The notes beneath the pieces were generated by a model. The model had not been told where the DNA came from. It was given only the letters and a program-made list of their open reading frames with translations, and did no database searches. DNA of 41,255 nucleotides. It comes from Nitrospirota bacterium (GTDB lineage Bacteria; Nitrospirota; Thermodesulfovibrionia; Thermodesulfovibrionales; UBA6898). How positions within the stretch are numbered: position 1 is the first letter of the stretch; each line of letters begins with the position of its first letter. The translations under genes were made by a program, and so were the position numbers. Location: NCBI GenBank assembly GCA_016215155.1, contig JACRLQ010000034.1, positions 1 through 41,255 on the forward strand, written 5' to 3'. Positions 2,242 through 19,951 of the stretch are shown here, piece after piece.

Positions 2242-3489
2242 ATGAACAGGGGTAGAATCGAACAGTCAATGAACCATGTCCTGGCGCTGGTCCTTGCCGG
2301 CGGCAAGGGGGAGAGGCTTCATCCCCTTACGCTCGATCGCGCGAAGCCGGCGGTGCCCTTCGGCGGCAAATACCGCATCATAGATTTCACCCTCAGCAAC
2401 TGCATAAATTCCAACTTAAGAAGGATAGTCGTGGTCACCCAGTATAAGTCTCTTTCCCTGGACCGGCACCTCGCGCTCGGATGGGAGCACCTTCTTAATC
2501 CCGAACTCGGGGAATATATTTTTTCCGTCCCCCCGCAGCAGAGGATAGATGAACGCTGGTATCAGGGGACTGCCGACGCTGTTTTTCAGAACATCTATCT
2601 TATCGAAAAGGAAAACCCCCGCTACATACTTGTGCTCTCAGGTGATCATGTATACAAGATGAATTATGCCGATATGTTCGATTACCACGTCCGAAACGGC
2701 GCCGCAGGGACCGTCGCGACTATAAAGATAGACAAAAAAGACGCCGGGGCCTTCGGGATAGTCGAAGTGGACGCCGGCTCAAGGATCATCGGGTTCCATG
2801 AGAAACCGGAATCTCCCGTCACAATACCCGGAGACCCGGAGCACTGCTACGCCTCTATGGGGCTCTACCTGTTTAATACGGACGAGATCATATCGGAACT
2901 CAGGGCCGACTCCGTGACGTCCTCCGCGCATGACTTCGGCAAAAACATTCTGCCTGCCATGATGGGCTGCGGGGGGCTCTATGCCTACGAGTTCAAGGAC
3001 GAAAACAGAAAAGAGGCAAAATACTGGAGGGACGTGGGGACGATCGACGCCTATTGGGAGGCGAACATGGACCTGGTGTCCGTTGACCCCCATTTCAACC
3101 TCTACGACAGGGACTGGCCCGTCAGGACGAACCAGGGGCAGTACCCTCCGGCGAAGTTTGTCTTCGCGCAGGAATACAAGGGCGGCAGGCTCGGAATAAG
3201 CCTGGATTCGATCATAAGCGGGGGATGCATCATAAGCGGAGGCAGGGTCCAGAACTCCGTCCTTTCTCCGAATGTCAGGGTCAACAGCTTCGTTGACATT
3301 CGGGAATCGATCCTGATGGAAAATGTCGAGATAGGAAGAAGCTGCAGGATAAGAAAGGCCATTATCGACAAGGACGTCTATGTGCCGTCAGGGACTATCA
3401 TAGGGTATGATCCTGAGGCGGACAGGGAGAGGTTCGTCGTCAGTGAAGGCGGCGTAGTGGTGATTCCAAAGGGCGCGGAGATCCGATGA
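2242..3489 (+). CDS. glgC: Glucose-1-phosphate adenylyltransferase
   Basis: This enzyme makes ADP-glucose from glucose-1-phosphate and ATP, the committed step of bacterial glycogen synthesis. The 415 residues fit GlgC. The N-terminal nucleotidyltransferase core is clear (LVLAGGKGERLHPLT, KPAVPFGGKYRIIDFTLSN), as are YQGTADAV, LSGDHVYKMNY, the GIVEVD and HEKP substrate region, and YWRDVGTIDAYWEAN. The C-terminal third is the left-handed beta-helix (SIISGGCIISGG, IDKDVYVPSGTIIG). The annotated ATG has GGAG 9 nt upstream; an ATG nine codons later would also keep the whole fold. The last 4 nt overlap the start of the DUF4388 gene. Confidence 0.96.
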   Translation: MNRGRIEQSMNHVLALVLAGGKGERLHPLTLDRAKPAVPFGGKYRIIDFTLSNCINSNLRRIVVVTQYKSLSLDRHLALGWEHLLNPELGEYIFSVPPQQRIDERWYQGTADAVFQNIYLIEKENPRYILVLSGDHVYKMNYADMFDYHVRNGAAGTVATIKIDKKDAGAFGIVEVDAGSRIIGFHEKPESPVTIPGDPEHCYASMGLYLFNTDEIISELRADSVTSSAHDFGKNILPAMMGCGGLYAYEFKDENRKEAKYWRDVGTIDAYWEANMDLVSVDPHFNLYDRDWPVRTNQGQYPPAKFVFAQEYKGGRLGISLDSIISGGCIISGGRVQNSVLSPNVRVNSFVDIRESILMENVEIGRSCRIRKAIIDKDVYVPSGTIIGYDPEADRERFVVSEGGVVVIPKGAEIR

Positions 3490-4622
3490 GCCTTGTAGGA
3501 AGGCTTGAAGACCTTTCTCTTTCGGATATATTCCAGATCCTGAGCGTAGGCAGAAAAACCGGCACACTCGTGGTAAAGGGGAGTAAAGGGACCGCTCTCA
3601 TAGTCTTCAAAAACGGTCTGATAGTCAGGGCCGAAACCGACGATATCGAAGGCAACATGGGGGACATCCTTGTACAATCGGGCCTGATCAAGGACACGAT
3701 AATGTACCTCGCCCTGGAGGTCAAAAAAGAGCTCCCTGCCAAGCCTATTGCCGAAATACTCCATGACCTCGGCTCAGTGAGGCCCGAGATGCTCGAAAAG
3801 GCCGCTAAAAAGAGGATAGAGAGGGTGATATGCCGCCTCCTTTCATGGGAAGACGGGGATTTTCAGTTCGAACTGGATGACCTGGAACTTCAGAGCAAAA
3901 CGGAACTTCCAGACCTCGGATGGGAAGTAAGCCGCGGACTGAGTCCGGAATATCTTCTGATGGAGGGCGCCAGGGTCCAGGATGAGATGTCCCAGCAGTC
4001 ATACATCCCGTCAGAGGACCTTTCGGTCTCCGACTCCGGGGATGCGGACGAAGAGGGGGGCTGGGAGGAACCATTGGATAGCCCGTCGGCGGAGAGAAGG
4101 GACATCACGGCGCTTAAGTCTCTAACACAGGAACTGCGGTTCCCCAACTCCGCGTCGGAGATAACACTCCTGATCCTCCGTTTCGCCAGCGATATGTTCC
4201 TTCGCGGCGTGCTTTTTATGATAGGCAAAGGGGAGATGGTAGGTCTTGGACAGTTCGGGCTCGAGATCGAGAGGGCCGACGAGATGGTGCGGGCGACCGT
4301 GCTCAACGTGGACAAAAGCCCGTTTTTCAAAAAGATCGTGACCGAACAGCTCACTTATAAAGGCGCGCTTGAAAAAGACGAGGTCACGGCCAGACTGGTG
4401 GAAGTGCTCGGCGGCGTCTGGCCCAGAGACACCGTAATATTCCCCATAGTGGCGGAGGGCAGGGTGGTGGCGTTCCTCTACTGCGACAATTCTTCCGACG
4501 CCGGGCCTGTCGGGGAGACCGAAGGCCTGGAGATATTCATAAACCATGCCGGGCTGGCCCTCGAAAAATCCCTGCTCCAAAGAAGGATCCAGGACATGGA
4601 GACCGACCGGGGGACAGCCTGA
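3486..4622 (+). CDS. DUF4388 (PATAN) regulator with GAF-like C-terminus
   Basis: The start ATG overlaps the glgC stop (ATGA), so the two are co-translated. Residues 1 to about 110 match the DUF4388 pattern (LVGRLEDLSLSDIFQILSVG followed by RKTGTLVV), a domain of two-component and gliding-motility proteins thought to mediate protein-protein contacts. A helical stretch follows, then an acidic linker around residues 175-205. The C-terminal part (about 215-365) looks like a degenerate GAF fold, with DTVIFPIVAEGRVVAFLY and a closing helix. No catalytic motif is seen. It sits between glycogen synthesis and the chemosensory cluster, so it may be an adaptor; that is inference. Confidence 0.75.
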   Translation: MSLVGRLEDLSLSDIFQILSVGRKTGTLVVKGSKGTALIVFKNGLIVRAETDDIEGNMGDILVQSGLIKDTIMYLALEVKKELPAKPIAEILHDLGSVRPEMLEKAAKKRIERVICRLLSWEDGDFQFELDDLELQSKTELPDLGWEVSRGLSPEYLLMEGARVQDEMSQQSYIPSEDLSVSDSGDADEEGGWEEPLDSPSAERRDITALKSLTQELRFPNSASEITLLILRFASDMFLRGVLFMIGKGEMVGLGQFGLEIERADEMVRATVLNVDKSPFFKKIVTEQLTYKGALEKDEVTARLVEVLGGVWPRDTVIFPIVAEGRVVAFLYCDNSSDAGPVGETEGLEIFINHAGLALEKSLLQRRIQDMETDRGTA

Positions 4623-4734: not shown

Positions 4735-5103
4735 GTGAAGACTATTCTGATAGTAGATGACTCTGCCACAACAAGGGCCCTCATAAGGGCGGTGATCGAT
4801 GAACTCGGAGATGTCGAGACCGTCGAGGCCGCTTCCGGATTTGAGGCCCTTAAGATGCTGCCCCAGCAGGACTATGACCTGATCATCACCGATATCAATA
4901 TGCCGGACATAAACGGGCTCGAACTTATCAATTTTATCAGGAACAACGCGCGGTATGTCCACCTGCCTATTATCATAGTAAGCACCGAAAGAAGCGAAGA
5001 GGACAAAAAACGCGGCATGGCGCTCGGCGCCACAAGTTATGTCACCAAACCCTTCAAACTGCCTGAACTGCAGGAGATAATCAAAAGGACCCTGGGGCTG
5101 TGA
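4735..5103 (+). CDS. CheY-like single-domain response regulator
   Basis: The 122-residue receiver domain has no output domain. The acidic pocket D8/D9, phospho-acceptor D53 (ITDINMP), switch T84 (VST) and K105 (TKPF) are present. The start is GTG with an AGGAAAGG ribosome binding site. The stop overlaps the GTG start of cheA by 4 nt, which makes it the likely phosphorylation partner of that kinase. The 112 nt before it hold AT-rich -10-like sequences around 4650-4665, but no convincing -35. Confidence 0.93.
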   Translation: MKTILIVDDSATTRALIRAVIDELGDVETVEAASGFEALKMLPQQDYDLIITDINMPDINGLELINFIRNNARYVHLPIIIVSTERSEEDKKRGMALGATSYVTKPFKLPELQEIIKRTLGL

Positions 5104-7100
5104 AGGCTTCGAAAAAGGAATTCATAGCCGAGGCGGAGGAACTTCTTGAGGAATCCCAAAGACTCATTCTGGAGATCCAGGACACGTTCCTTACAGGTCT
5201 TAATCCGGATACCATAAACGCGCTCTTTCGTTCCATGCATACCCTCAAGGGGGTTTCGGGCCTGTTCGGAGTCCATGGCATTACGACCCTGAGCCACGCG
5301 CTCGAGACGCTCATGGACGAGGTGAGGCTGGGCAAAATCGACCTCAACCAGGACGTCGTCCAGTTCCTTTTCAGGAACCTTGACATCCTCAGGGAGATGA
5401 CCGACGAGGTGAGCAAGGGGAACAAGGAAGGGGACGCAGAGCATTACGTCAAAGACATAGAGGCCTTCAGGGCGTCCCAAAAGGGACAGGCCGGGACCGA
5501 CTCCCAGATATCAGCTATCGATGAGTCCATAATGAAGGTCCTGTCTGAATACGAGGAGCACAGGCTGAAATCGAATATCAGGGAAGGCAGGGGCATCTAC
5601 CTTGTCAAGGCGGCCTTCAGTCTTGATACCTTCGATACCTCTCTTGAGGCCCTTACCAGCGCGGTCAAAGCGAAGGGCGAACTGATATCGACGCTTCCGA
5701 CGTCCGATAATGTGCCGGAGGGGTCCATCGGCTTCAACCTTATGTTCGGGACCACGGCGCAGGCTGAGGAAATGAAAAAAGACCTGGAATTCGATATAGA
5801 TACGCTTGTAAGTCCGCGCATAGCGGCCCGTGCCCCGGCACAGGCGCACGTTGAGGCTGAGGCGGAACCGCAACAGCAAAAGCAGGACACCCACTTAAAA
5901 AGCACCTCCACCACGGTGCGGGTCGACATAGAAAAACTCGACAGGATACTCAATACCGTCGGTGAGCTTACCCTCGCCAAGGGGGCCATAAAACGCATAG
6001 GCACCGAACTTTTAGAGCATTATGGACAGAACCACCTGGTCTATGACATACACAAGATATCCCAGGCGCTCGAAAGAAGGCTTGCCGAACTCCAGGACCA
6101 GGTGCTGGAGATACGCATGGTCCCGATAGGGCAGATCTTTACCCGGTTGGCCCAGGTGGTGAGGCGTTATTCAAGGGAGATAGGAAAGAATATCGACCTG
6201 GTCATGTATGGAGAAGACACTGAACTGGACAAGTACCTTGCCGAAGAGATAGTTGACCCCCTTATGCATCTCGTAAGGAATTCCATCGACCACGGCATCG
6301 AGCCGGCCGAGGACAGAAAACGCAAGGGGAAAAAAGAGACCGGCACGGTCATATTGAAGGCATATCAGCAGGGCAACCATGTTATCGTCGAACTCCGCGA
6401 CGACGGCGCCGGCATAGACCTTGTAAAGGTAAGAAAGAAGGCGGTCGAGAAGGGCCTTTTGGAAGCCGGGTCCGAACCGTCCGAAAAGGAGATCATCGAC
6501 TGTATATTCGCCCCGGGCTTCAGCACCAAGGACGTCGTCAGCGAGGTCTCCGGGAGGGGGGTCGGCATGGACGTCGTGAAGGAGAAGCTCTCCGCAATGG
6601 GCGGTTATGCCGTGGTCGAGACAAAGAAAGATATCGGCACGGTCTTCATGCTTACGCTGCCGATCACACTTGCCATAATCAAGGCCCTGATCGTGAGGGT
6701 CGGAAGCGAGCGCTTTGCCGTGCCCCTGACTTCGATGTCCGAGACCCTGATAGTTGAGCACAAGGACCTCCAGACGATCGAATGGAAAGAGGTCTATTAT
6801 TTAAGGGGCGAGATGCTTCCGATGATCAGGGTCAGCAGTTTCTTTAATTTCGAGCCGACAAAGTCGGAGAGGTCCTTCGCCGTGGTTGTGGGTATCGGGG
6901 AACGGAAAGTCGGGCTGCTCGTCGACGAGATGTTCGGCCAGAGCGAGATAGTCATAAAGTCGCTCGGGGACTACCTAAAGAAGCTCAGGGGTTTTGCGGG
7001 CGCGGCTGAAATCGGAAAGCATGAGGTCATCCTTGTGCTGGACACCGAATCGCTTATAGACGATACCGTCGTGAAACAGAGAGGTATTTCCAATGTATGA
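5100..7100 (+). CDS. cheA: Chemotaxis histidine kinase CheA
   Basis: CheA takes phosphate from ATP and passes it to CheY and CheB under receptor control. The order is complete: HPt domain with phospho-acceptor H47 (SMHTLKG); a regulator-binding P2-like region at about 155-245; a charged Gln/Ala-rich linker at about 250-268; the P3 dimerisation helix from about 273; the HATPase with N-box around H390 (HLVRNSIDHG), G1 DDGAG at 434-438 and GRGVGMDVV; and a CheW-like P5 domain from about 525 to 660. The GTG start overlaps the upstream cheY stop, and the 3' end overlaps the ATPase gene by 8 nt. The 666-residue length is normal. Confidence 0.97.
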   Translation: MKASKKEFIAEAEELLEESQRLILEIQDTFLTGLNPDTINALFRSMHTLKGVSGLFGVHGITTLSHALETLMDEVRLGKIDLNQDVVQFLFRNLDILREMTDEVSKGNKEGDAEHYVKDIEAFRASQKGQAGTDSQISAIDESIMKVLSEYEEHRLKSNIREGRGIYLVKAAFSLDTFDTSLEALTSAVKAKGELISTLPTSDNVPEGSIGFNLMFGTTAQAEEMKKDLEFDIDTLVSPRIAARAPAQAHVEAEAEPQQQKQDTHLKSTSTTVRVDIEKLDRILNTVGELTLAKGAIKRIGTELLEHYGQNHLVYDIHKISQALERRLAELQDQVLEIRMVPIGQIFTRLAQVVRRYSREIGKNIDLVMYGEDTELDKYLAEEIVDPLMHLVRNSIDHGIEPAEDRKRKGKKETGTVILKAYQQGNHVIVELRDDGAGIDLVKVRKKAVEKGLLEAGSEPSEKEIIDCIFAPGFSTKDVVSEVSGRGVGMDVVKEKLSAMGGYAVVETKKDIGTVFMLTLPITLAIIKALIVRVGSERFAVPLTSMSETLIVEHKDLQTIEWKEVYYLRGEMLPMIRVSSFFNFEPTKSERSFAVVVGIGERKVGLLVDEMFGQSEIVIKSLGDYLKKLRGFAGAAEIGKHEVILVLDTESLIDDTVVKQRGISNV

Positions 7101-7911
7101 GCAGTTTTACGGACTGAAGGCAAGGCCGTTTTCGAAAACCCCCGACCCGAGGTTCCTCTTTTTAAGCAGAAGCCACGAAGAGGCGCTTGCGCGCCTCCAG
7201 TACGCCGTTGAGGAGAAGGAACTCGTGCTTTTGACGGGGGATGTCGGCTGCGGCAAAACCACCCTTACCAGGGCGCTTATGGACATGACGGGGCCCCAGT
7301 ATAAGGTCATAAATATAATCAACCCGATACTGACGCCGGCACAGTTCCTCAAGACCATCGCCATGAGGATGGAGATAGAACTGCCGTCGAACTATAAGGC
7401 GGAACTGCTCGATGCGATCTATAACAGGGTGTATCAGGATTTCGAGGCCGGGATTTATTATGTGATTATAATAGATGAGGCGCAGCTTATCCCGGCAAAA
7501 GAGACCTTCGAGGAGATACGTCTGCTGACGAATTTCCAGCTTGACCACACAAACCTCATAAGCCTTATCCTGGTGGGCCAGACTGACCTTAGAAAGAGGC
7601 TCAACCATAAGGCGTTTCTGCCGTTGAAGCAGCGGATCGGCCTTTTTTATCACCTGGGGCCGATCAGGGAGGAAGAACTGAGGGATTACATGACCTGCCG
7701 CTTGAGCCGGTCGGGCAGGGAAGACATGTTTTTTTCGGACGGGGCGCTGAAGCTGATCTATAAATATTCAGAAGGCGTGCCGAGGCTGATTAACAGCCTT
7801 GCGACATCGGCGCTGCTCGACGGTTTTGTCCGTGAGATTGAGGTCATCGATGAGATCCTGATTGAGGAGGCCTCCAGGGAACTGGGATTAAATGGATATA
7901 GCGAAAATTAG
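7093..7911 (+). CDS. ExeA/GspA-like AAA ATPase
   Basis: The 272-residue protein starts MYEQFYGLKARPFSKTPDPR and has FLSRSHEEALARL, both characteristic of the ExeA/GspA family. These ATPases work in type II secretion or transposition-type complexes. Walker A is GDVGCGKTT (about 49-57), Walker B is VIIIDEAQ, the sensor region is LILVGQTDLRKRL, and a winged C-terminal lid follows. No transmembrane segment or peptidoglycan-binding domain follows the ATPase, unlike full-length ExeA. It overlaps cheA by 8 nt and cheW by 20 nt, so it is translated as part of the chemosensory operon. Its role there is not known to me. Confidence 0.88.
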   Translation: MYEQFYGLKARPFSKTPDPRFLFLSRSHEEALARLQYAVEEKELVLLTGDVGCGKTTLTRALMDMTGPQYKVINIINPILTPAQFLKTIAMRMEIELPSNYKAELLDAIYNRVYQDFEAGIYYVIIIDEAQLIPAKETFEEIRLLTNFQLDHTNLISLILVGQTDLRKRLNHKAFLPLKQRIGLFYHLGPIREEELRDYMTCRLSRSGREDMFFSDGALKLIYKYSEGVPRLINSLATSALLDGFVREIEVIDEILIEEASRELGLNGYSEN

Positions 7912-8605
7912 GAAAAAGGCCCTTGCCGGGGGCAGGCAGCCGGAAACCGAAAAAACTCCGTCGACGGAGAACGGACCTGTCGCGACCGGCGCCGGGGACC
8001 CGGAAGTCCTTCCGGACCCGACGGAGGGGCCGGAGAACGCGGACGCGGCGCATCTTACGGAGGAAGCGGCAGGTCCGGCCGACGGGCCTTCCGCCGCTGA
8101 AAATCCGGTTGCGGCGTCCCCTGACTCCGGACCGCGGGCAACGGAACTTCTCACGTTCAGTCTCGACAGGGAGGAGTTCGCGTTCAGGGTCCCTGAAGTC
8201 GAGGAGATCATCCGTTTTCAGAGGATCACCCGGGTGCCGACCGTGCCTGACTATGTGCTGGGCATAACATCTCTGAGAGGAAAGATCATCCCCGTGATTG
8301 ACCTCAGGGCGAGACTCGCGCTCGACAGGCGATCGTCCTCAGGGCCTGACAAAAGCGGGCTGGCGGGGGACGGCGTTACGGAGCGGAAGGAGAAGATAAT
8401 CATCCTCTCAGGGCCAAAAGGACTTATCGGGGCGATCATAGACAGAGTAATGGGGGTCGTCAGGCTTACGGAGGACATTATCCTGGAGCCCCCTCCCCAC
8501 CTTACGGAAGAGGAGACCAGGTTCATAGAAGGGGTTGTGATCGTGGACAAAAGGTTTATATCGATAGTCAGAGCGGAAGACGCTATGGACATAGAACTGG
8601 AATAA
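7892..8605 (+). CDS. cheW: CheW coupling protein with long N-terminal extension
   Basis: The C-terminal 150 residues are a CheW domain that links receptors to Che[18 protein letters not shown] from residue 84, then [20 protein letters not shown] and [12 protein letters not shown]. Ordinary CheW is about 150-170 residues. This one adds about 83 N-terminal residues rich in Ala, Pro, Gly and Glu after a short basic start ([14 protein letters not shown]). The extension looks disordered and may be a tether or regulator-binding arm. The first 20 nt overlap the ATPase gene; the receptor gene starts 12 nt after the stop. Confidence 0.93.
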
Positions 8606-8616
8606 GAGGGGAACGA

Positions 8617-11472
8617 ATGCACGATAAACTTGAATTGAAGATTCTGGCGCTTGTTGCGGCGCTTCTTTTGATCGGGGTCCTGACCGCGGGCTTCATGGTA
8701 TTTAAGATTGAAAAGACCAGTCTATACTCCATTACCGAAGCCAGCACGGGGGTGACCGCCAATATCATCGTCAAGGACATCGAGAGGATAATGCTTGAGG
8801 GCAGGGCCGACTTCGCGAAGTCCTATATGGAGAGTCTGCAGGGGGTGAGCGGACTGGATGAGATAATACTGCTTCACCATGACGGACACCTGGCGTTTAA
8901 TCCCAAGTCGGAACTGACTGCCGACGCCGATATAATGAAAAAAATGCTCCTTACGAAGGCCCCTGTCGTCCAGCGGGCCGACAAGAAGCTCATTTTTTTC
9001 AAGCCCCTTGAAAACACCGACCGTTGCAAAGGCTGTCATGCGAATGACCCGGCGGTCCTCGGCGCCGTAAAACTGTCGTTTTCGATTGCAAAGGAATATG
9101 ACAATTCCATGAGACTCATATTCATAGTCATCCTGGCTACGATTGTAGCGTGCCTGATATTCAGCATTATTTTGTGGGCCGTGATACGGAAGATGGTGAT
9201 CACCCCGGTAAAGAAACTTGAAGACGCGGCCGTGAAGCTTTCCGAGGGCGACCTCGCGCTCAGGCTCGACATCAGCAGCAATGATGAAATCGGCAGGTTC
9301 AGCAGGGCCATACACGCTTCCCTGGTTTCGATATCCGGCATGCTGCTGAGGGTGAGGGAGGTATCAAGGCGCGTAAACCTGGTGGCCGAGGACGTCAGCA
9401 GGGAATCGCGGAAAGTCGTCGAGGGGACGGTATTGGAGACCGAGACGATCAATAACATATCCGCTTCGGTGGAAGAGATGAACGCGGCGATATCCGACAT
9501 TTCCGAAGGCACCGATGGGCTCGCAGCCACCGCCGAAGAGACCGCGGCGGCAACGGAAGAGATGGTCATGAGCATAAACCAGATAACCCACAATACGCAG
9601 GAAATGTCCAGGGCGGTCGAGACGACTTCCGCCTCTATCGAGCAGTTCTCCGCTACCATAAAAGAGGTCGCCGCCAATTCGGGGGAACTGGCCGCCGCGG
9701 CGGATGAGACCCAGAGTGCGATCCTCGAAATCGCGTATGCCATAAAAGAGGTCGAGCAGCTGGCAAAAGAATCCGCTATTCTGTCGGACAAGGTAAAAAA
9801 AGATGCCGTGGGCCTCGGGATGGTCTCGGTCGAAAAGTCCATCCTCGGCATGCAGAACATAAAAGCGTCCGTCAAGAAGACGGCTGATTGCATATCCAAG
9901 CTCGGGGGAAGGTCCGAAGAAATTGGAAAGATACTCAATGTCATAGACGAGGTGACCGACCAGACCACGATGCTGGCGCTCAACGCCGCGATACTTGCGG
10001 CCCAGGCGGGCGAGCACGGGAAGGGTTTTTCCGTAGTCGCCGAAGAGATCAAGGACCTGGCAGGACGCACCTCGGTGTCCACCCAGGAGATAGGGGAGCT
10101 TATCCAGGCGGTGCAGCAGGAAGTCAGGGACGCCGTTACCGCCATGAATGAAGGGCTGGATTCCGTCGAGACGGGGTTCAAGGTGACGAACGAGGCGGTG
10201 GACGCCCTCCGGAAGATCGTCGAGAGCTCCAAGAGATCTTCGGAAATGGCCGCCGCTATCGAGCACTCGACCACGGAGCAGTCGAGGGCGGCCAGATTGG
10301 TCTCGGAGGCCATGGAGAGGGTCCTGGGCATGGTCGGGCAGATCGCCAAGGCCACCAATGAGCAGAGCAACGGGATGCAGCTGATAATGAGCGCGACGGA
10401 GAAGATCAACGATCTTGCCAGCCACATCAGAACGGCCTCCGCGGAGCAGTCACACACGAGCGGACAGATTTTCATGGCGGTGGAGCAGGTATCCGAAAAG
10501 AGCCAGCATATCTCCAACGCCATCCGGGAGCAGAAGATCGGGTCTAACCAGATATGGACCTCCCTCGAGAAGATCAAGGACCTCCCGCGGGAAAACAGGG
10601 AGCGGGCCTTTAAGCTTAACCAGATGGTGAACGAACTGGTCAAGGACGCCGAATTGGCGGCAATAGAGCTGGAAAAGTTCAAGCTGAGCACTGATGGGAT
10701 AGAAGGACGGCTCAGGATGGGCATCGTTCCGCTTGAAGCCCCGGCGGTCATGTATAAGAAGTTCAGTCCTCTTGTGGAATATCTTGGGAAGAGGCTTCAA
10801 AGGAAGATAGAACTCAGGGTCGCCATCGATTTCGTGGGGGCCGTGAACGATCTCGGCAGGGGGGAGACGCAGTTCTGCTTCATGACCCCTTCGACCTACG
10901 TCGAGGCGCACAAAAAATACGGCGCCTCGGTCATAGTCAAGGCCCTGAGAAACGGGAAGCCCTTCCAGCACTCGGTGATCATTACGCGGGAGGACACCAA
11001 CATAAAGGACATTAAAGACCTCAGGAACCGGTCGTTCGCGTTTGGCGATATCAACTCTACCTCCAGTCATATAGTCCCCAGGGGCATGCTGCTTTCAGAG
11101 GGGATAGACCTGAAGGACCTCTTCTACTATAACTATCTGGGTCATCACGACGATATTGTGAAGGCCGTGCTTGCCGGCGAATTCGACGCCGGCGCCGTCA
11201 TGGAATCCGCGGCCAATAAACACAAGGCCGCCGGCCTTAGGATAGTCAGGGTCTCTGATGATATCCCTGAATTCAATATATCCGTTTCGGGCCGCCTCGA
11301 CACGGAGGTGGTGTCCGAACTCAGGACCGCGCTTCTTGCCCTCAACGACGGAAGCGCCGAGAGCATTGACGTGTTAAAGGCGATCAACGAGAGCTATACA
11401 GGGTTCACGGAATCCAGCGACGATGACTACAGCGGCATAAGGACCATGATGTCCAGGATTGCCCTGATTTAA
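8617..11472 (+). CDS. Chemoreceptor with periplasmic heme motif and C-terminal PhnD-like domain
   Basis: The 951-residue protein has a first membrane helix at about 8-29, a periplasmic domain with a c-type heme site CKGCH (137-141), a second membrane helix at about 166-190, and HAMP at about 191-243. The signalling hairpin runs from about 244 to 685, with its tip near 464-466. From about 698 to 940 comes a domain matching PhnD-type binding proteins of phosphonate transporters: [60 protein letters not shown]. No third membrane helix is visible, so this domain should be cytoplasmic. The periplasmic domain could sense redox state, oxygen or NO; the PhnD part could report a cytoplasmic ligand. 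Both are inferences. Confidence 0.92.
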
Positions 11473-11483
11473 GGAGGATATAT

Positions 11484-12305
11484 ATGAATATGAGGGTACA
11501 CGTAATTTGTATTTGCCTGCTGGCAAGCGCTCTGTTTGTTGGAGCGGCGGGGGCGGAAGAAAAGATAAGATTGGCAGGGTCAGGGGGCATGATCCCTATC
11601 ATGAACGACCTGGCAAAGGAATATATGGCTGAAAACAGGAATGTCCGCATAGAGATCAACCAGAAGTCCATCGAATCAAAGGGAGGCATAATGTCCGCCG
11701 CCGAGGGGAGGGTCGATATCGGCATGGCCGCAAGGACGTTGAAAGACGACGAGAAGAACCTCGGTCTGCAGGCGACGGAGATCGCCCGCGTGGGGACCGT
11801 CATAGGCGTAAACAAAAACGTGTCCCTCAGGGAGATCACCAGCGAACAGCTCTGCAGGATTTATGAAGGCAGGCTTGCCAGCTGGGGGGAACTAAAGGCG
11901 GGCAAGGACAATATTATGGCGCTGACGCGGCCGAACCAGGATGCGACGAAAGAGACTGTAAGAAAATATATCCCCTGCTTCGCCGACCTGAAAGAGCCTG
12001 ATACCGTTATATCGATAGCGACCGCCCCGGAGATGACCAAGGTGCTTACAAACAGGCCGAATACCATCGGTTTTACCGATGCCGTAGCGGTCGAGTCCTC
12101 CGGCGGGGCCATTGTTCCCCTTAAGCTCGACGGGGTTGACCCCACCCCCGACAATGTCAAAAGCGGCAAATATAAGGTGATCAAGAGTTTTTTCCTTATG
12201 ACCAAAGGCCAGCCGTCAGGCGCCGTGAAGGAATTCATCGCCTTTGTCAGGGGGCCCAAAGGCGCCAGGATAATCGGCTCACATAAGGCGGTCCCCGTAA
12301 AGTGA
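11484..12305 (+). CDS. PstS-like periplasmic substrate-binding protein
   Basis: A signal peptide (MNMRVHVICICLLASALFVG, cleavage near AGA-EE) precedes a type 2 periplasmic binding fold of the phosphate class: IRLAGSGGM, GRVDIGMAARTLK, IGVNKNVSLREITSEQL, IYEGRLASWGEL and RPNTIGFTDAVAV. Phosphate-binding loops are altered compared with PstS (ESKGGI where GSGxG is usual), so the ligand may be another oxyanion. No pstCAB transport genes are nearby. It lies between two chemoreceptors and its TGA overlaps the next receptor's GTG, suggesting it is a ligand-presenting partner rather than a transporter part. AAGGAGG gives a strong ribosome binding site. Confidence 0.88.
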   Translation: MNMRVHVICICLLASALFVGAAGAEEKIRLAGSGGMIPIMNDLAKEYMAENRNVRIEINQKSIESKGGIMSAAEGRVDIGMAARTLKDDEKNLGLQATEIARVGTVIGVNKNVSLREITSEQLCRIYEGRLASWGELKAGKDNIMALTRPNQDATKETVRKYIPCFADLKEPDTVISIATAPEMTKVLTNRPNTIGFTDAVAVESSGGAIVPLKLDGVDPTPDNVKSGKYKVIKSFFLMTKGQPSGAVKEFIAFVRGPKGARIIGSHKAVPVK

Positions 12306-14326
12306 TACTCAATAAATCCATAACCGCAAAATTTATTACGGCGCTTTTTGTCGTTTTTCTGATCGGCCAGTTTATCGGGGGCATTTTCATAATCATGTTT
12401 ACGAGATCGGCGCTTTTCGATTCACTCGAAAAGAGGATCAGGCGGACCGGTATCACGACGGCGGGTGTAAGTTCAGGCCCGCTGCTGAGTTACGATTATG
12501 GCCTGGTGGACCTCTTCCTCGAAGAAGTCCTCAAGGATGACGATATAATTTCCGTCCATATAATGGACGCAGGCGGCAAGGTGGTCAGGGAGACCGTCAA
12601 GACTTCGGACGTTAAATCTGACGGCATCAACCCGTTTACTTATAAGGGAGTAAGGTCGCTCAACGTTCCCGTCAATGCCGCGGGAGCAAAGATAGGCGAA
12701 GTGCGCATGGACTATTCGGCGGAAAGCATCAACAGAAATATAAACGACAGTATGATCACCATATTCCTTTATGAATTGCTGATGCTTCTGGTCATGGGAC
12801 TGATCATGACTTATTTTTTCAACCGGCATATTAAAAAACCGGTCCTGCAGATCAACAAATCGATAGAAAAGATAACCCTGGGAGACCTTACCATAGAGGT
12901 GCCGAACCTCGGAGACAACGAGATAGGAAGCATTGCGAAAGGAATCATCTTCCTGGTTGAAAGGCTCACCCAGACCGTTTCGAAGCTCAATTCCACCGCC
13001 ATAAACGTATCTATGGCCATCAAACAGGTGAATATAACATACAGTAATGTGACCAACGGAATGAAGAGGCAGTCCGACGCGGTCAGCGATGTCTCCCTCG
13101 CCGTACAGCACGCGTATAAGGCCCAGTCGGACGTAAGCGATAGCTCGGAAAAACTGGCCAGTTTTTCGATAGAGAACGTCTCATCCCTTATCGAACTGAA
13201 GGCCACGGCGGATGAGATCGCATCCAATACCCAGAGACTTCTGAAGGCCACGGAAGACCTTTACTCGGTAGTCTCCCAGATAACCCAGACCGCGAAGTCC
13301 ATCTCAAAGACTTCCAGCGGCGCGCTGGTGGCGGTCGAGGACACCTCCACCTCCGTCGAAGAGATAGGCGCTTCGATCCGGGAGGTCGAGGAGCACGCAA
13401 GGGAATCTTCAAAGATGGCCCTGAAGGTCCAGGATATAACTTCCGATTTCGGCATGGACGCGATAATGAACGCCGTCGAGGGAATGGAGAATATCTCCGC
13501 CGAGGTGCAGAAGTCGTTCGAGATCGTCGAGAGACTGGATTCGAGGTCGGCCGACATCGAAAAGGTCCTTTCCGTGATAAAGGATGTTACTGAACAGACG
13601 AGTCTCCTTTCCCTGAACGCGGCGATCCTTGCCGCGCAGGCCGGTGAATACGGAAAAAGTTTCTCGGTTGTCGCCGATGAGATCAGCGCCCTTTCGGACA
13701 GGACGGCAAGTTCCACCAGGGAGATAAGCGGCATAGTCAAGACCATCCAGAGGGACATAAAGGACGCCGGCTCCTCGATAGTGTCCGCCAAGTCAAAGGT
13801 CGAGGAAGGCAACGGGTTGGTCCTTAAGGTAGGGGACGCTCTGAAAGACATACTGAACGCCTCCGAGCATTCCACTGAGATGACCATGGCTATCGAGAGG
13901 GCGACCGAGGAACAGTCCAGGGGCCTTAAACAGATTACCATGGCCATTGCGGAGATCCGCAAGATGATGATGAATATAACGAAATCAACTTCCGAGCAGG
14001 ACCGCGCGCTCAGTTTCCTTCTTGAGAGTGTGGGCGAGGTCAAGGAGGTCGCGGACCTCAGCAAGCGGGGCACGGAGGAACAGGCCATCGGGACCAAGGG
14101 GATATCGAGGAATCTGGAGCTTGCCAATGAAAGGATAACGAGCATAAACCAGGCCGTCATGAACCAGAACAAGCTCAATGACTCCATTGTCGAGGCGATG
14201 GACAAGATAAAGGGCATCGGCAACGCAACGGTAAAGGACATGGACGAAGTGTCCGTTTCGCTCAATACCCTTTTCGGCGAAATAGAGGTGCTCAAAAAAG
14301 AGATGGAAGGATTCAGGACCAGATAA
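12302..14326 (+). CDS. Methyl-accepting chemotaxis protein
   Basis: The 674-residue receptor has a membrane helix at about 10-33, a periplasmic domain of about 115 residues resembling a small Cache/PAS sensor (LLSYDYGLVDLFLEEV, VHIMDAGGKVVRE), a second membrane helix at about 152-174, HAMP at 175-226 and a long signalling hairpin with tip residues [13 protein letters not shown] (439-451). It has no heme motif and no extra C-terminal domain. It starts with GTG inside the stop of the PstS-like gene, so the binding protein may dock on this receptor. The next gene, cheW, starts on the base after its stop. Confidence 0.94.
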   Translation: MILNKSITAKFITALFVVFLIGQFIGGIFIIMFTRSALFDSLEKRIRRTGITTAGVSSGPLLSYDYGLVDLFLEEVLKDDDIISVHIMDAGGKVVRETVKTSDVKSDGINPFTYKGVRSLNVPVNAAGAKIGEVRMDYSAESINRNINDSMITIFLYELLMLLVMGLIMTYFFNRHIKKPVLQINKSIEKITLGDLTIEVPNLGDNEIGSIAKGIIFLVERLTQTVSKLNSTAINVSMAIKQVNITYSNVTNGMKRQSDAVSDVSLAVQHAYKAQSDVSDSSEKLASFSIENVSSLIELKATADEIASNTQRLLKATEDLYSVVSQITQTAKSISKTSSGALVAVEDTSTSVEEIGASIREVEEHARESSKMALKVQDITSDFGMDAIMNAVEGMENISAEVQKSFEIVERLDSRSADIEKVLSVIKDVTEQTSLLSLNAAILAAQAGEYGKSFSVVADEISALSDRTASSTREISGIVKTIQRDIKDAGSSIVSAKSKVEEGNGLVLKVGDALKDILNASEHSTEMTMAIERATEEQSRGLKQITMAIAEIRKMMMNITKSTSEQDRALSFLLESVGEVKEVADLSKRGTEEQAIGTKGISRNLELANERITSINQAVMNQNKLNDSIVEAMDKIKGIGNATVKDMDEVSVSLNTLFGEIEVLKKEMEGFRTR

Positions 14327-14812
14327 ATGCGGAAGTTCGCCGTATTCAGGATATCAGATGAGGTCTTCGGCATAGCCATTGAAAGGGTCGTTGAGATCAT
14401 AAAGGTGCAGAAGGTCTTTACCATTCCGGGCCTCCCGGGGTTTCTCTCGGGAGTCATGAATGTAAGGGGACTGGTCGTACCGCTGATAGACCTCAGAAAG
14501 CGTTTCGGGATGGAGCCCTCGGGTAAGAAAGAAAGGATCATCGTGGTAAGGTTCGAACAGGAAAAGGTCGGTTTCCTTGTGGACGAGATACTGGACATAC
14601 TGCCGATTTCCCAGGAGGAGATGACGAGACCGCCTTCGATATTCAGGGGGTTCAAGACCGAATTTATTACGGGGCTCGGCAGGAAGGACAACAATATTAT
14701 CATACTTCTGAATATAGACAATCTGCTGACCTCGGAAGAGAGGATAATGCTTAAAGAATCGATCGGCCTGATCGGAGAAGACCTTGCAGGAACTGATAAA
14801 ACAGCTAAGTAG
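14327..14812 (+). CDS. cheW: CheW coupling protein (second copy)
   Basis: The 161-residue protein is a plain CheW: FAVFRISDEVFGIAIERVVE, FTIPGLPGFLSGVMNVRG, VVPLIDLRKRFGM, EKVGFLVDEI. The ATG immediately follows the TAA of the upstream receptor gene, which suggests reinitiation by the same ribosomes. Its 3' end overlaps the HEAT-repeat gene by 29 nt. Two different CheW proteins in one operon, one short and one extended, may couple the two receptors differently to the single CheA. Confidence 0.94.
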   Translation: MRKFAVFRISDEVFGIAIERVVEIIKVQKVFTIPGLPGFLSGVMNVRGLVVPLIDLRKRFGMEPSGKKERIIVVRFEQEKVGFLVDEILDILPISQEEMTRPPSIFRGFKTEFITGLGRKDNNIIILLNIDNLLTSEERIMLKESIGLIGEDLAGTDKTAK

Positions 14813-16757
14813 CAGCAATATAGAGGTCAGACGGGAAGTCGTCGAGAGCATGCGCGGAGTGAAGGACGACGCCTGTATCCCGGTCCTTCTTAAGGCCATG
14901 GAGGACGTCAGCTGGCGTGTAAGAAAGACCGCGGTGGACATTCTCTTTGACGAGTACCCCGTCGGGAAATATATACAGGGTCTCATCCAGCTGCTTTATA
15001 TCGAAGACAATGCCGGCGCGAGAAACTCGGCCATAGAGTCGCTCATCAGGCTCGGGAAGAAGGCCACGGCATTCCTGATTGAGGCCTTTAAAACGCCGAA
15101 CAGGGACGTCAGGAAATTCATCATCGACGTGCTCGGGGAGCAAAGGGACGGCAGAGCGCTGCCGCTTATGCTTGAGGCCATAAGAGACGAAGACGAAAAC
15201 GTGAGCGCCACGGCGGTGGAGCATCTCGGCAAAGTCCGCGAGGTATCGGTGGTTGACGCGCTGATAGAGATCCTCGAAAACGGCGAACTCTGGACCGCCT
15301 ATCCGGCCGCGGACGCCCTTGGAAGGATAGGCAATAAAAAGGCCGTCCCGCACCTTCTTACTGCGCTCGGCAAAAAACCTCTGCGGGAGCCGGTGCTTAA
15401 GGCCCTTGGCAGGCTGGCTGACCCCTCGACGCTTCCCGCTGTAGTGCCGCTGATGCAGGACGCCTCAAAAAATATCCAGGAACAGGCTTTGAGGACAGTC
15501 GAAATGTTTTATCATAACGGAGTTGACGCCGAATTTATCGTTTCCGAAATAAAGGGTATCCTCGGCGGTCCGGCCCTGGACCTTCTGATCAGGCATGCGT
15601 GGTCCAGCAAGCGGGAGGTCAGGATATCGGCGATACTCCTGCTGGGTCTCATGAAAGACGAAGCCGCCTATGGTCCGCTTCTGGACATATCGCATGAGGA
15701 GGAGTTCGCGGAGGATGTCAAAAACGCCCTGGTCTTTATCGGAAGGCATAACCCCGAGTCACTCCTGAAACTTTTTGATACGACTGATACCCACCAGCTG
15801 AGGTTTATATGCGAGGTGACTGAAAAGGTCAGTTCGCCTGTCTATTACGATGTCCTTGAGTCCCTGCTTCGCAATGATGACGGGCATGTGCGCGCGACTG
15901 CCGCAATCAGTATATCGATGTTAAAAGATGTCAGGGCGGCGGGCGGACTGAGGGAACTGCTTGTTGACCCGTATTCGGATGTCCAGGAGTCCGCGGTGGC
16001 GGCCCTTTCAAACCTCGGAGGAGGATTTTCCGACGATCAGCTGCTGGAGATGCTCAGGGACGACGACCCGGTGCTTCGCAGAAATACCGCTATGCTTCTG
16101 GGGAAAATGAGGTCCTCGGGGCTGGTTATGGAACTTGGGTTTGCCCTGAAAGATTCGGACAGGATGGTCAGGCAGTCGGTTGTCGAGGCCCTTTCGTCGA
16201 TAGGCACGGATGAGGCTGTAAAATATCTCATGTACGCGCTTACCGACGAGGAGCCCTCTATCAGGACGGCAGCCGCGCTAAGCCTGGGTCGAATAGGCGG
16301 CCCCGGAGTCGGTGATTCACTTATGATCCTTGCGTCGGACCCTGACAACTCCGTCAGGGTGGCGGCCGCGAAGTCGCTCGGGACATTGAAAGACAAAGCG
16401 GCGATCGGAACGCTTGTCTGTCTTTTGGACGACAGAAGCGGTTTTGTCGTCACGTCGGCCATAAAAGCCCTCGGCGTGATAGGGGGGAATGAGGCGCGCG
16501 AAGCCGTCTTGTCGATGCTGTCCGCCTCCGACGATGAAATACGCCGGACCGCCATAATAGCGCTGTCCGCGTTTGAGGACATCGAGGGCCGCATCGTCCC
16601 CTTTCTCAAGGACAGGGACTGGGCGACCAGGATGGCGGCCGTCAGGACGCTGGGGAGCATGCCGGGGAAAGACGCGATCAGGGAACTTGAGAAACTCCTG
16701 GATACGGAAGAAGACCCGACCGTCATAAAGACTGTCGAGGAGATCCTGAGTGCTTGA
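14784..16757 (+). CDS. HEAT-repeat protein in chemosensory operon
   Basis: This 657-residue protein is built almost entirely of about 30-residue HEAT/PBS-lyase repeats, for example DVSWRVRKTAVDILFD, DEDENVSATAVEHLGKV, DEEPSIRTAAALSLGRIGG and DPDNSVRVAAAKSLGTLKD. Such solenoids are scaffolds for protein contacts; no catalytic motif or membrane segment is seen. The start is TTG with GGAG upstream, inside the end of cheW, and the 3' end overlaps cheR by 8 nt. This position between CheW and CheR suggests a scaffold or adaptor role in the array; that is inference. A second HEAT protein lies on the other strand at 21176-22831. Confidence 0.9.
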   Translation: MQELIKQLSSSNIEVRREVVESMRGVKDDACIPVLLKAMEDVSWRVRKTAVDILFDEYPVGKYIQGLIQLLYIEDNAGARNSAIESLIRLGKKATAFLIEAFKTPNRDVRKFIIDVLGEQRDGRALPLMLEAIRDEDENVSATAVEHLGKVREVSVVDALIEILENGELWTAYPAADALGRIGNKKAVPHLLTALGKKPLREPVLKALGRLADPSTLPAVVPLMQDASKNIQEQALRTVEMFYHNGVDAEFIVSEIKGILGGPALDLLIRHAWSSKREVRISAILLLGLMKDEAAYGPLLDISHEEEFAEDVKNALVFIGRHNPESLLKLFDTTDTHQLRFICEVTEKVSSPVYYDVLESLLRNDDGHVRATAAISISMLKDVRAAGGLRELLVDPYSDVQESAVAALSNLGGGFSDDQLLEMLRDDDPVLRRNTAMLLGKMRSSGLVMELGFALKDSDRMVRQSVVEALSSIGTDEAVKYLMYALTDEEPSIRTAAALSLGRIGGPGVGDSLMILASDPDNSVRVAAAKSLGTLKDKAAIGTLVCLLDDRSGFVVTSAIKALGVIGGNEAREAVLSMLSASDDEIRRTAIIALSAFEDIEGRIVPFLKDRDWATRMAAVRTLGSMPGKDAIRELEKLLDTEEDPTVIKTVEEILSA

Positions 16758-17619
16758 AAAAGATGAAATTGTCCCTCTCTCAGAAGATGTCTTCAGGCTG
16801 ATCAGGGACATCATAAGAGACTACTGCGGCCTTTTTTTTGATGACTCTTCAAGATACCTGCTCGAAAAGAGGCTTTCGCGTCGTGTGAGGAGCCACCACC
16901 TCGATGACTTCAGGGATTACTACCGGTTCCTCCGTTACGACAGGAACTCTTCACAGGAACTGTCCGAAATCATGGATATCCTCACTGTCAACGAGACCTA
17001 CTTTTTTAGGGAGCAGAACCAGTTGAAGGCCTTCAGCCAGGAGATCCTGGAAGAACTCAAACATACGAATGCCGCAAGAAAGACCCTGAGAATATGGTCT
17101 GCCGGATGTTCTACCGGAGAGGAACCCTATACGGTCGGAATGCTCATCAATGAGAAGACTGAATTCAGGGACTGGGACATCGAGATCTACGGCAGTGATA
17201 TCAACCAGCGGGTGCTGCAGACGGCCAGGCGGGGAGTATACAGGAAGAACTCCTTCAGGACGACGGAGCCCTATTTTTTGAGCAGGTATTTTGTTGAGGA
17301 AGAGGGGGGATCCAGAATCGCGGATGCTATAAAGAAGAACGTCAACTTCAGCTATCTCAATCTTCTGGACCCTTTTAAGATGAAGTTTCTGGGCAAAATG
17401 GATGTAATATTCTGCAGGAATGTTTTAATATATTTCGACACGGTATCGCGCAAAAAAGTGATCGAGAATTTTCATGACAGGCTGAATGACGGCGGCTATC
17501 TCCTCCTTGGCCATGCCGAGTCCCTGATAAACATCTCTACCGCTTTTAATCTGAAACATTTCAAAAACGATATGGTTTACCAAAAACCTCTCAGGGCGGA
17601 AATGAATTTCAGGGTCTGA
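16750..17619 (+). CDS. cheR: Chemoreceptor glutamate methyltransferase CheR
   Basis: CheR methylates glutamates of the receptor hairpin using S-adenosylmethionine. The 289 residues show the N-terminal helical domain (RLSRRVRSHHL), NETYFFRE (81-88), the SAM-binding loop SAGCSTGEEP (117-126), YGSDIN, and NVLIYFD with GGYLLLGHAE near the end. GTG is the start, 8 nt inside the HEAT gene. A 76-nt gap then separates it from cheB. No C-terminal pentapeptide-type tether is needed or seen. Confidence 0.97.
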   Translation: MLEKDEIVPLSEDVFRLIRDIIRDYCGLFFDDSSRYLLEKRLSRRVRSHHLDDFRDYYRFLRYDRNSSQELSEIMDILTVNETYFFREQNQLKAFSQEILEELKHTNAARKTLRIWSAGCSTGEEPYTVGMLINEKTEFRDWDIEIYGSDINQRVLQTARRGVYRKNSFRTTEPYFLSRYFVEEEGGSRIADAIKKNVNFSYLNLLDPFKMKFLGKMDVIFCRNVLIYFDTVSRKKVIENFHDRLNDGGYLLLGHAESLINISTAFNLKHFKNDMVYQKPLRAEMNFRV

Positions 17620-17695
17620 TCCGGGTTGTTCAGCGCGCCGCCCGTAAGACCGGTGCGGGTATTTTTCTATTAATTTTACAAGGAGCAGGGAGCAA

Positions 17696-18754
17696 GTGAG
17701 CGCCAGAGTTCTGATAGTTGACGATTCTGCCTATACCAGGCAGCTTATTAAAAATATAATAGAGCAGGAACCCCACCTTGAGGTCGCCGGGATAGCGTCC
17801 GACGGAATTGACGCCATGGCCAAGACCCTCAGGCTTAAACCCGACATGATAACGCTCGATTTTGAAATGCCGGGGATGGACGGGTTCAGTTTCCTTCGCT
17901 GGCTGATGCGGGAGCGTCCGACCCCGGTGATCATGGTAAGTTCCTATAACGATACAAAGACGGTCTTCAAGGCCCTGGAGCTCGGCGCGGTGGATTTTAT
18001 AGCCAAGCCCACAAAACGCGCGTCGATCGAACTGAGGGGCATAGAGAGGGACCTGATCAGGAAGCTGAGGGGCATAAAAGATGTCAGACTTGAAAAGCTC
18101 AGTAAAAACCTCGAACTCCTTGACAGGCCTGAGCCGGTGTCCCGGACGGTATCCAGGGCGAACAACAGGGTGGACCTGGTGACGATCGGTTCGTCGACCG
18201 GAGGACCGGCCGCTCTCCAGATAATACTTACCAGATTGCCGGCCGATTTCCGGGCCGCGGTGGCCGTCAGCCAGCATATGCCGAGGGGGTTCACAGGTCA
18301 GCTTGCGCAGAGGCTTAACAAAATTTCTAACGTCTCGATAAAGGAGGCGCGCGACATGGACACCGTTGAACCCGGACATGTGCTGATATGTCCAGGCGGC
18401 TATCACATGGGATTCGAGAAAAAAGGAGCGGAGTATATCGTGTCCCTTAAAAAAGGGATGGTCGATGACAAATACACGCCTTCAGTCGATTACATGATGA
18501 AGTCTGCCGCCGAGATATTCGGGGACCTGACCATGGGGGTCATACTCACCGGAATGGGCAATGACGGGAAGGCGGGGATGGTGGAAATTAAAAATAAAGG
18601 CGGTTATACTATAGCAGAGTCGGAAGATACCGCTGTGGTATTCGGCATGCCGGGAGAGGCCATCAAGACGGGGGCGGTCGTCTCCGTGCTGCCGGTATCC
18701 GAGATACCCGCAGCGATCACGCGGATTGTAAACCGTCAGTCGGCAGGGAGATGA
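17696..18754 (+). CDS. cheB: Chemoreceptor methylesterase/deamidase CheB
   Basis: CheB removes methyl groups from receptors when its receiver domain is phosphorylated. The receiver has D9/D10, phospho-acceptor D55 (TLDFEMPGMDG) and K104 (AKP). A linker of about 50 residues leads to the esterase with the catalytic triad S167 (IGSSTGGP), H194 (SQHMP) and D290 (TGMGNDG). The GTG start has AAGGAG and GGGAG upstream. The next gene begins directly after its stop codon. Confidence 0.97.
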   Translation: MSARVLIVDDSAYTRQLIKNIIEQEPHLEVAGIASDGIDAMAKTLRLKPDMITLDFEMPGMDGFSFLRWLMRERPTPVIMVSSYNDTKTVFKALELGAVDFIAKPTKRASIELRGIERDLIRKLRGIKDVRLEKLSKNLELLDRPEPVSRTVSRANNRVDLVTIGSSTGGPAALQIILTRLPADFRAAVAVSQHMPRGFTGQLAQRLNKISNVSIKEARDMDTVEPGHVLICPGGYHMGFEKKGAEYIVSLKKGMVDDKYTPSVDYMMKSAAEIFGDLTMGVILTGMGNDGKAGMVEIKNKGGYTIAESEDTAVVFGMPGEAIKTGAVVSVLPVSEIPAAITRIVNRQSAGR

Positions 18755-19579
18755 ATGAGCGAGAAAGAGACAGCATATACCAATAAGGCTGATGAATTCC
18801 TCCAGATGTTCCGTAAGGGGGAGGAATTTACCAAGGAGCTTTTGAAGGAGAATGAAAAGCTCAGATACAGGATCGCCCAGCTGACGGAAACCGTTCAGCG
18901 CTCCGGAGATGAAGCCAGGACGAAGATCTATGAAAACAGGATACAGCTGCTGGAGGAAGAACTGAGTTCTCTCCGCGAGCGTTTCATGCAGGTTGAGCAG
19001 GAGAACAAGGACTTTGCCTCTAAATACATAGAGGTCGAAGAGGAAAACAATAATCTCGCCAACCTTTATGTAGCGAGCTATCAGCTGCATTCGACCCTGG
19101 ATTTTTCCGAGGTGCTGAGGATTGTCCTCGAAATTGTAATTAATCTGATAGGGGCGGAAAAATTTACGGTCCTTCTTATAGAAGACAAGACGAATGAGCT
19201 CGTCGCGGTCTGCACGGAAGGCATGGCGATGTCGGAGGCGCCCAAGGTAAAAATCGGGGACGGCACAATCGGGACGGTCGCCAAAGAGGGAGAAAGTTTT
19301 TTTGCCCAGGACCTCAGCAATGTCAGGGAATTCAACCCCCTTGACCCGATCGTCTGCATACCGCTTAAGATAAAAGAGCACGTTATCGGGGTCATCGCCA
19401 TTTATAAATTACTGGTGCAAAAAGATGGTTTTACCAATGTCGATTACGAACTTTTCAATCTCCTTGCGGGTCACGCGGCCACTGCGATCTTCTCCTCCCG
19501 GATGTATACTCAGTCTGAGAGGAAACTTACGACGATCCAGAGTTTCCTTGACCTTCTGAAAGAGAAGCCGAGGAGATAG
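18755..19579 (+). CDS. Coiled-coil GAF-domain protein
   Basis: Residues 1-105 are charged and heptad-rich (for example ELLKENEKLRYRIAQLTETV and RIQLLEEELSSLRERF), predicting a long coiled coil. Residues from about 110 to 255 form a GAF domain, with LDFSEVLRIVLEIVINLIGAEKFTVLLIED and a LKIKEHVIGVIAIYKL strand pair. No kinase, cyclase or DNA-binding output follows, so it is probably a sensory adaptor. ATG follows the cheB stop with no gap. It is followed after 9 nt by a CheY-like regulator, and the two could act together. Confidence 0.85.
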   Translation: MSEKETAYTNKADEFLQMFRKGEEFTKELLKENEKLRYRIAQLTETVQRSGDEARTKIYENRIQLLEEELSSLRERFMQVEQENKDFASKYIEVEEENNNLANLYVASYQLHSTLDFSEVLRIVLEIVINLIGAEKFTVLLIEDKTNELVAVCTEGMAMSEAPKVKIGDGTIGTVAKEGESFFAQDLSNVREFNPLDPIVCIPLKIKEHVIGVIAIYKLLVQKDGFTNVDYELFNLLAGHAATAIFSSRMYTQSERKLTTIQSFLDLLKEKPRR

Positions 19580-19588
19580 GGGACGAGC

Positions 19589-19951
19589 ATGCGTAACATA
19601 CTGGTTGTGGAGGACTCACCTACCATGAGGCAGCTTATAAGCTTTGCCATTAAAAGGGTCCCGAACTCACACGTTATCGAAGCCACCGACGGTGTGGACG
19701 CCCTCAAAAAATTATCTTCGGAGAAAATAGACCTGATACTCGCCGATATCAATATGCCTGTGATGGACGGTCTGAAACTGGTGAGTCTCGTGCGGGGGAA
19801 TCCTTCCTATAAAGACATCCCGATAATAATCGTGACAACTGAGGGCGCTGAAGAAGACAGAAAAAGGGCCATAGCGATAGGGGCCAACGCCTACCTCCCC
19901 AAACCCATCCAGACCCAGGAGCTTATCAAGCTGGTAAACGGTTTCCTGTAA
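19589..19951 (+). CDS. CheY-like single-domain response regulator (second)
   Basis: The 120-residue receiver has E8/D9, phospho-acceptor D53 (LADINMPVMDG), switch T83/T84 and K105 (PKP). It is the last gene of the + strand chemosensory run and closely resembles the regulator before cheA, so the kinase has at least two receivers plus CheB to choose from. Either could act as a phosphate sink or the output regulator. The gene is convergent with the HD-GYP gene after a 58-nt gap. Confidence 0.93.
   Translation: MRNILVVEDSPTMRQLISFAIKRVPNSHVIEATDGVDALKKLSSEKIDLILADINMPVMDGLKLVSLVRGNPSYKDIPIIIVTTEGAEEDRKRAIAIGANAYLPKPIQTQELIKLVNGFL

Follow-up and report, generated by a model that had tools for sequence, protein, structure and literature searches.

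A conserved chemoreceptor architecture in Nitrospirota joins a periplasmic heme-motif sensor to a C-terminal PhnD-type domain

Introduction

GSU0582 and GSU0935 of Geobacter sulfurreducens are among the described chemoreceptors closest in plan to the protein analyzed here, having two transmembrane segments (TMs), a periplasmic sensor that contains CxxCH and belongs to the same family, a HAMP domain and an MCP hairpin. In contrast to our protein, their published descriptions give HAMP and then MCP and mention no C-terminal binding domain (PMC8396549, PMC12889525). Their sensor family, Mcp40H-20, was renamed sCache_heme in a 2026 preprint, which also reported its enrichment in Nitrospirota and, where it is fused to signalling modules, NO-sensor-like properties (PMC12889525). 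NO binding is known for the family (PMC8396549, PMC12889525), and Met60 is one axial heme ligand of GSU0935 (PMC8396549).

Sensing from the opposite end of a transmembrane receptor has a precedent in DcrH of Desulfovibrio vulgaris, in which a periplasmic region, HAMP and MCP are followed by a C-terminal cytoplasmic domain; the signal path in DcrH is not understood (PMC9388753). The C-terminal domain of DcrH is a hemerythrin, whereas the receptor described below carries a periplasmic-binding-protein (PBP) fold at this place, the fold of PtxB, HtxB, ArrX and PhnD, which are themselves periplasmic.

We analyzed a window of 41,255 nucleotides from a Nitrospirota bacterium (assembly GCA_016215155.1, contig JACRLQ010000034.1, positions 1 to 41,255, forward strand). 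An earlier note on this DNA, made from its letters alone, had regarded the combination of a periplasmic heme-motif sensor with an intracellular PhnD-like domain in one chemoreceptor as not known to form a described class. This agrees with our own search, since in the open-access literature searched we found no account of a chemoreceptor that bears a PhnD-type domain at its cytoplasmic terminus; architecture tables may well list it. What is new is thus an apparently undescribed arrangement of known modules, one that is both conserved and modular.

Results and discussion

The open reading frame at 8617..11472 on the + strand encodes a chemoreceptor of 951 aa. Pfam recognizes PF21563, HAMP, MCPsignal and PF12974 in this order, and the ORF, the Pfam matches and full-length homologues together define a layout of heme sensor, HAMP, MCP hairpin and PhnD domain, with all features of the gene given below on the + strand. 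HAMP (PF00672, E = 1.5e-9) occupies residues 190-227 (9184..9297) and is followed by the signalling hairpin at residues ~243-687 (9343..10677), which was delimited by the MCPsignal match (PF00015, residues 416-569, E = 2.6e-44) and the helices of the structural model. The hairpin is complete, with its tip near 460-470 and two arms of about equal length. Together with CheA, CheW, CheR and CheB encoded within one cluster, it places the protein among the MCPs. A long minus-strand ORF (9036-10751) runs antisense inside the receptor gene.

We then examined the periplasmic region. Residues 50-157 (8764..9087) matched PF21563 above the cut-off (E = 2.2e-8) and aligned with the c-heme sensor structures of GSU0582 (3b47, E = 1.8e-4) and GSU0935 (3b42, E = 2.7e-3). 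The CxxCH site that the earlier note had placed in the periplasm at 137-141 is indeed present as CKGCH (9025..9039), and it coincides with the heme sites of both structures, so that similarity and motif position alike assign the domain to the Mcp40H-20/sCache_heme type. C137, C140, H141 and M59 were invariant in an alignment of 23 rows, and 27 of 31 full-length homologues carry CxxCH. M59 (8791-8793) may act as an axial ligand in the manner of Met60 in GSU0935. Cytochrome c assembly proteins are encoded in the host genome. By analogy with the family of GSU0582 and GSU0935, we infer that the periplasmic domain senses heme redox state or a gas.

A Kyte-Doolittle scan of the receptor revealed two membrane segments only, TM1 at residues 9-27 (8641..8697, hydropathy 2.66) and TM2 at residues 167-185 (9115..9171, hydropathy 3.24), and exactly two TMs were found in all 31 full-length homologues checked. 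The earlier note had likewise seen only two membrane helices and had accordingly placed the PhnD fold inside the cell, where the coiled coil lies nearest the membrane, a placement against which a third helix at 680-700 would speak. No segment comparable to the TMs was found there: among 19-mers starting at 621-719 the best value was 0.76, compared with ~2.7-3.2 for the real TMs, and the hydropathy scan thereby rules out a third membrane helix in this receptor. Likewise, the hydropathy of the receptor gave no indication of a signal peptide or TM preceding the PhnD domain. Because the hairpin must be inside the cell to meet CheW and CheA, and because neither a TM nor a signal peptide follows it, the C-terminal domain must, judged from the sequence, be cytoplasmic; it begins directly after the complete hairpin, and the placement proposed earlier therefore holds. 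In one relative (L058), a hydropathy peak lies within the PhnD fold itself.

The C-terminal region, residues 699-947 (10711..11457), is a PhnD-type (type II PBP) domain by Pfam, alignment to PtxB and Foldseek. PF12974 (Phosphonate-bd) matched residues 701-938 over the full profile (1-242 of 242, E = 3.1e-62), and NCBIfam TIGR01098 also exceeded its cut-off. The nearest solved structures by sequence were PtxB (5o2j, E = 8.7e-24) and ArrX. An AlphaFold model of residues 640-951 had a mean pLDDT of 88.8, with most of the PhnD fold at 88-97, and Foldseek matched the domain model to PtxB, ArrX and PhnD with E-values down to 2.3e-27 (5o37); TM-scores normalized to the target were 0.85-0.89 for PtxB and ArrX (0.89 for 6x8w). 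The full-length profile match and the two-lobed PBP fold place the domain in the PF12974 class. Hence the PhnD-type domain that had been proposed at about 698-940 stands, and the contrary outcome, a C-terminus with no match of this type, did not arise.

A low-confidence stretch (688-697) separates the coil's last helix from the first PhnD strand. In the domain model, pLDDT drops below 50 at 688-694, and in the full-length model, whose pTM was 0.38, it does so at 686-696. The corresponding segment, residues 688-698 (10678..10710), is probably a flexible linker according to these models. In architecture, the receptor resembles DcrH in having a domain C-terminal to the MCP hairpin of a transmembrane receptor, in this case a candidate sensor that is not a hemerythrin.

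To characterize the putative binding site, we mapped the ligand contacts of the Te_PtxB structure (PMC5700983) onto the domain by alignment. The oxyanion-binding STS motif of PtxB/PhnD is kept, with S130/T131/S132 of Te_PtxB corresponding to S814-T815-S816 (11056..11064), as is the ligand histidine H160, which corresponds to H844 (11146..11148). Other contacts are changed: Y55 is replaced by F739 and Y100 by Q784 (histidine in many relatives), while the PtxB caps, tyrosine and aspartate, have become phenylalanine and leucine, with F886 (11272..11274) occupying the position of the capping Y208 and L706 that of D22. Among 29 PhnD domains, S814 was invariant and H844 and F886 were each found in 27; the paralogue group mostly has S-A-T in place of S-T-S. 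Taken together, the columns of the pocket exceed the whole domain in conservation only slightly, since the mean of the pocket was reached by random columns in 10% of draws and that of the STS-H columns in 6% (29 domains).

These comparisons suggest that an anion site is likely present. The residues that give PtxB its specificity are replaced, so PtxB-type phosphite specificity is not expected, and a phosphite-specific PtxB-type domain was rejected on the changed caps although the STS-H motif is there. The oxyanion-type ligand envisaged in the earlier note finds only indirect support: the STS-H motif that would hold such a ligand is mostly kept, while the cap residues that would define it are not. 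The domain also falls outside the periplasmic solute-binding proteins, which are characterized by their location and an ABC permease, as it has no signal peptide or TM and no PhnE above the cut-off accompanies it.

Next, we considered the genomic context. The receptor gene lies between genes for CheY, CheA, an AAA ATPase and CheW upstream (4735..8605, +) and a downstream part (11484..19951, +) that begins with a PstS-like protein, a second MCP without PhnD, CheW and a HEAT-repeat protein and continues with CheR, CheB, a GAF protein and CheY. No flagellar genes were found among the annotated genes of the window. The order CheY-CheA-AAA-CheW-receptor-[PstS-like]-[second MCP]-CheW-HEAT-CheR-CheB recurs in orthologous loci, in which the two bracketed genes are variable and the other che-cluster genes are conserved; the second MCP, for example, was not detected in the stretch read of L027, L030, L031 and L044. 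Because the cluster order recurs while the bracketed genes come and go, the MCP-PhnD receptor is a standing receptor of a conserved chemosensory system and not a stray fusion.

Several neighbors deserve mention. The PstS-like binding protein (11484-12305) has a signal-like N-terminus and sits between the two chemoreceptor genes; an obligate partnership of the receptor with it was rejected because in many orthologous loci no such gene was detected. The AAA ATPase (7093-7911), whose best NCBIfam match is an XrtA/PEP-CTERM-associated ATPase below its cut-off, and the HEAT-repeat protein (14784-16757) hold the same places in the clusters of many relatives. Immediately upstream of the che cluster, a GlmU-like nucleotidyltransferase is encoded at 2242-3489 and a DUF4388 protein at 3486-4622.

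To determine how widely the arrangement occurs, we searched 396 Nitrospirota genomes with a 197-residue query spanning the junction of hairpin and PhnD domain. About 93 places in ~86 of these genomes matched both sides of the junction in one open frame. The arrangement is conserved across many Nitrospirota families, where a second type with a shorter hairpin also occurs, and full-length orthologues are 47-73% identical to the receptor. With the junction conserved over so many genomes and families, the arrangement is neither chance nor artefact. A paralogue of the same layout (C22) is present in the host genome itself. No MCP-PhnD fusions on plasmids were found among the best matches listed, and a Salinivibrio match (H67) consists of two genes.

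The PhnD domain persists where the periplasmic part differs. It occurs with other periplasmic sensors, namely 4HB (L041) and sCache_3 (L060), and with non-heme periplasmic regions (L040_1771, L057_3744, L058 and L059). Five short receptors of 635-655 aa (L034, L035 and L061-L063) have no periplasmic domain and consist of two adjacent TMs, HAMP, a shorter hairpin and PhnD, which is the sole recognized input domain in short-hairpin receptors. Conversely, PhnD is missing in rare relatives: the orthologue L033 keeps the heme sensor and ends right after the hairpin, and no PhnD remnant was found 3' of it; at the orthologous loci L054-L056, the receptor lacks both input domains. Retained when the periplasmic sensor is swapped or absent, and lost alone in L033, the PhnD domain behaves as an independent module. 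In a congeneric genome (L040:1771-11999), a gene for a free PhnD-type protein lies between two MCP-PhnD paralogues, only one of which has CxxCH.

A phylogenetic tree of PhnD domains placed those of long-hairpin MCPs in one clade (support 96/93) and those of short-hairpin MCPs in another (100/99). The two clades were joined with weak support (82/28), so one and two fusion events are indistinguishable.

Based on these observations, we consider it fairly probable that the protein is a dual-compartment chemoreceptor, in which a heme-based redox or gas input from outside and a small anionic ligand inside both set CheA activity. Outside, a covalently attached c-type heme would sense redox state or a gas, for instance NO, as its sensor family suggests, and oxidation of the heme or gas binding would be signaled through TM2 and HAMP. 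Inside, the PhnD-type domain at the end of the returning helix may open and close around a small anionic ligand, probably phosphate-like or another oxyanion, or an organophosphate. Its closure would alter the hairpin close to the membrane, on the methylation/HAMP side, and CheA activity would then reflect both inputs. The modular architecture is what leads us to infer such two-signal integration. Alternatively, coupling might occur through contact of the PhnD domain with HAMP, the partner subunit or the membrane; a rigid lever is disfavored because the linker is predicted to be flexible.

Several findings weigh against a dual-compartment receptor. The flexible linker predicted by the models provides no obvious rigid path from the PhnD domain; orthologous loci exist without PhnD (L033) or without both inputs (L054-L056); and the changed PtxB contacts, the barely elevated conservation of the pocket and the low pTM of the full-length model point in the same direction. 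It is more tentative, and close to evenly balanced, that receptors throughout the phylum use the PBP fold as an intracellular sensor, comparing redox state or NO outside with the level of an anion or phosphorus metabolite in the cytoplasm.

Within the dual-compartment reading, the PhnD domain could sense a metabolite other than an inorganic oxyanion, such as a nucleotide or organophosphate, and report the energy or phosphorus state of the cell. We regard this version as rather doubtful: the structure of its fold relative XAC2383 (5ub7, a Foldseek match) has ATP bound, ArrX structures contain sulfate, malonate and acetate, and the caps that make the PtxB pocket small are lost, but the nearest sequence matches are PtxB and ArrX. 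It seems unlikely, moreover, that the domain is a degenerate fold that senses no small molecule and serves as a structural or docking module, for array spacing or for recruitment of CheR/CheB or another partner. The altered cap and aromatic contacts, the marginal pocket conservation, the linker and the missing domain in L033 would fit such a role, yet S814, H844 and F886 are nearly invariant in 29 sequences and short-hairpin receptors have no other recognized input domain. Finally, an ordinary heme chemoreceptor with an inconsequential recent or artefactual C-terminal fusion (a frameshift, a false join in the assembly or read-through into a neighboring phnD) is most improbable. Gene joining is imaginable from side-by-side overlapping MCP and PhnD genes on a Cereibacter plasmid, but an assembly or read-through artefact is refuted by the identical junction in those ~86 genomes and the full-length orthologues, and the fused domains are monophyletic and preceded by no signal peptide or TM.

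If the PhnD domain of the dual-compartment receptor does bind a ligand inside the cell, a type II binding-protein fold would serve as a cytoplasmic chemoreceptor sensor, the C-terminal end of the hairpin would offer a point for tuning receptors, and a single receptor would integrate redox state or NO outside with metabolite state inside. Because short-hairpin relatives have no periplasmic domain, the idea of a cytoplasmic sensor can be tested directly in them.

PhnD-type domains are also linked to signalling proteins elsewhere. In the host genome, a histidine kinase (C1:186232, 678-688 aa) carries such a domain at its N-terminus; unlike that of the receptor, it lies after a signal or TM segment and before a second TM, and is thus periplasmic. 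The same genome encodes one free PhnD protein and a PhnD protein with a signal peptide, whose gene adjoins that of a 312-aa sCache_3-HAMP protein (L011:4134-6066). Despite these several PhnD-type proteins, no PhnE permease above the cut-off was found in the host genome. Fusion or adjacency of PhnD to signalling proteins and the lack of a PhnE match fit, without proving, a role of the fold in signalling and not in uptake.

On plasmid pORIO4 of Cereibacter azotoformans (L053:3461-6092), the genes of a chemoreceptor and a PhnD-type protein overlap and form a counterpart of the MCP-PhnD fusion made of two genes; the PhnD-type protein has a hydrophobic, signal-like N-terminal segment and, unlike the receptor domain, is probably periplasmic. 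Relatives (L064:2229-3977, L066:2342-4042 and L072:1816-3483) encode proteins of 555-582 aa in which an N-terminal hydrophobic segment accompanies a tandem pair of PhnD-type domains.
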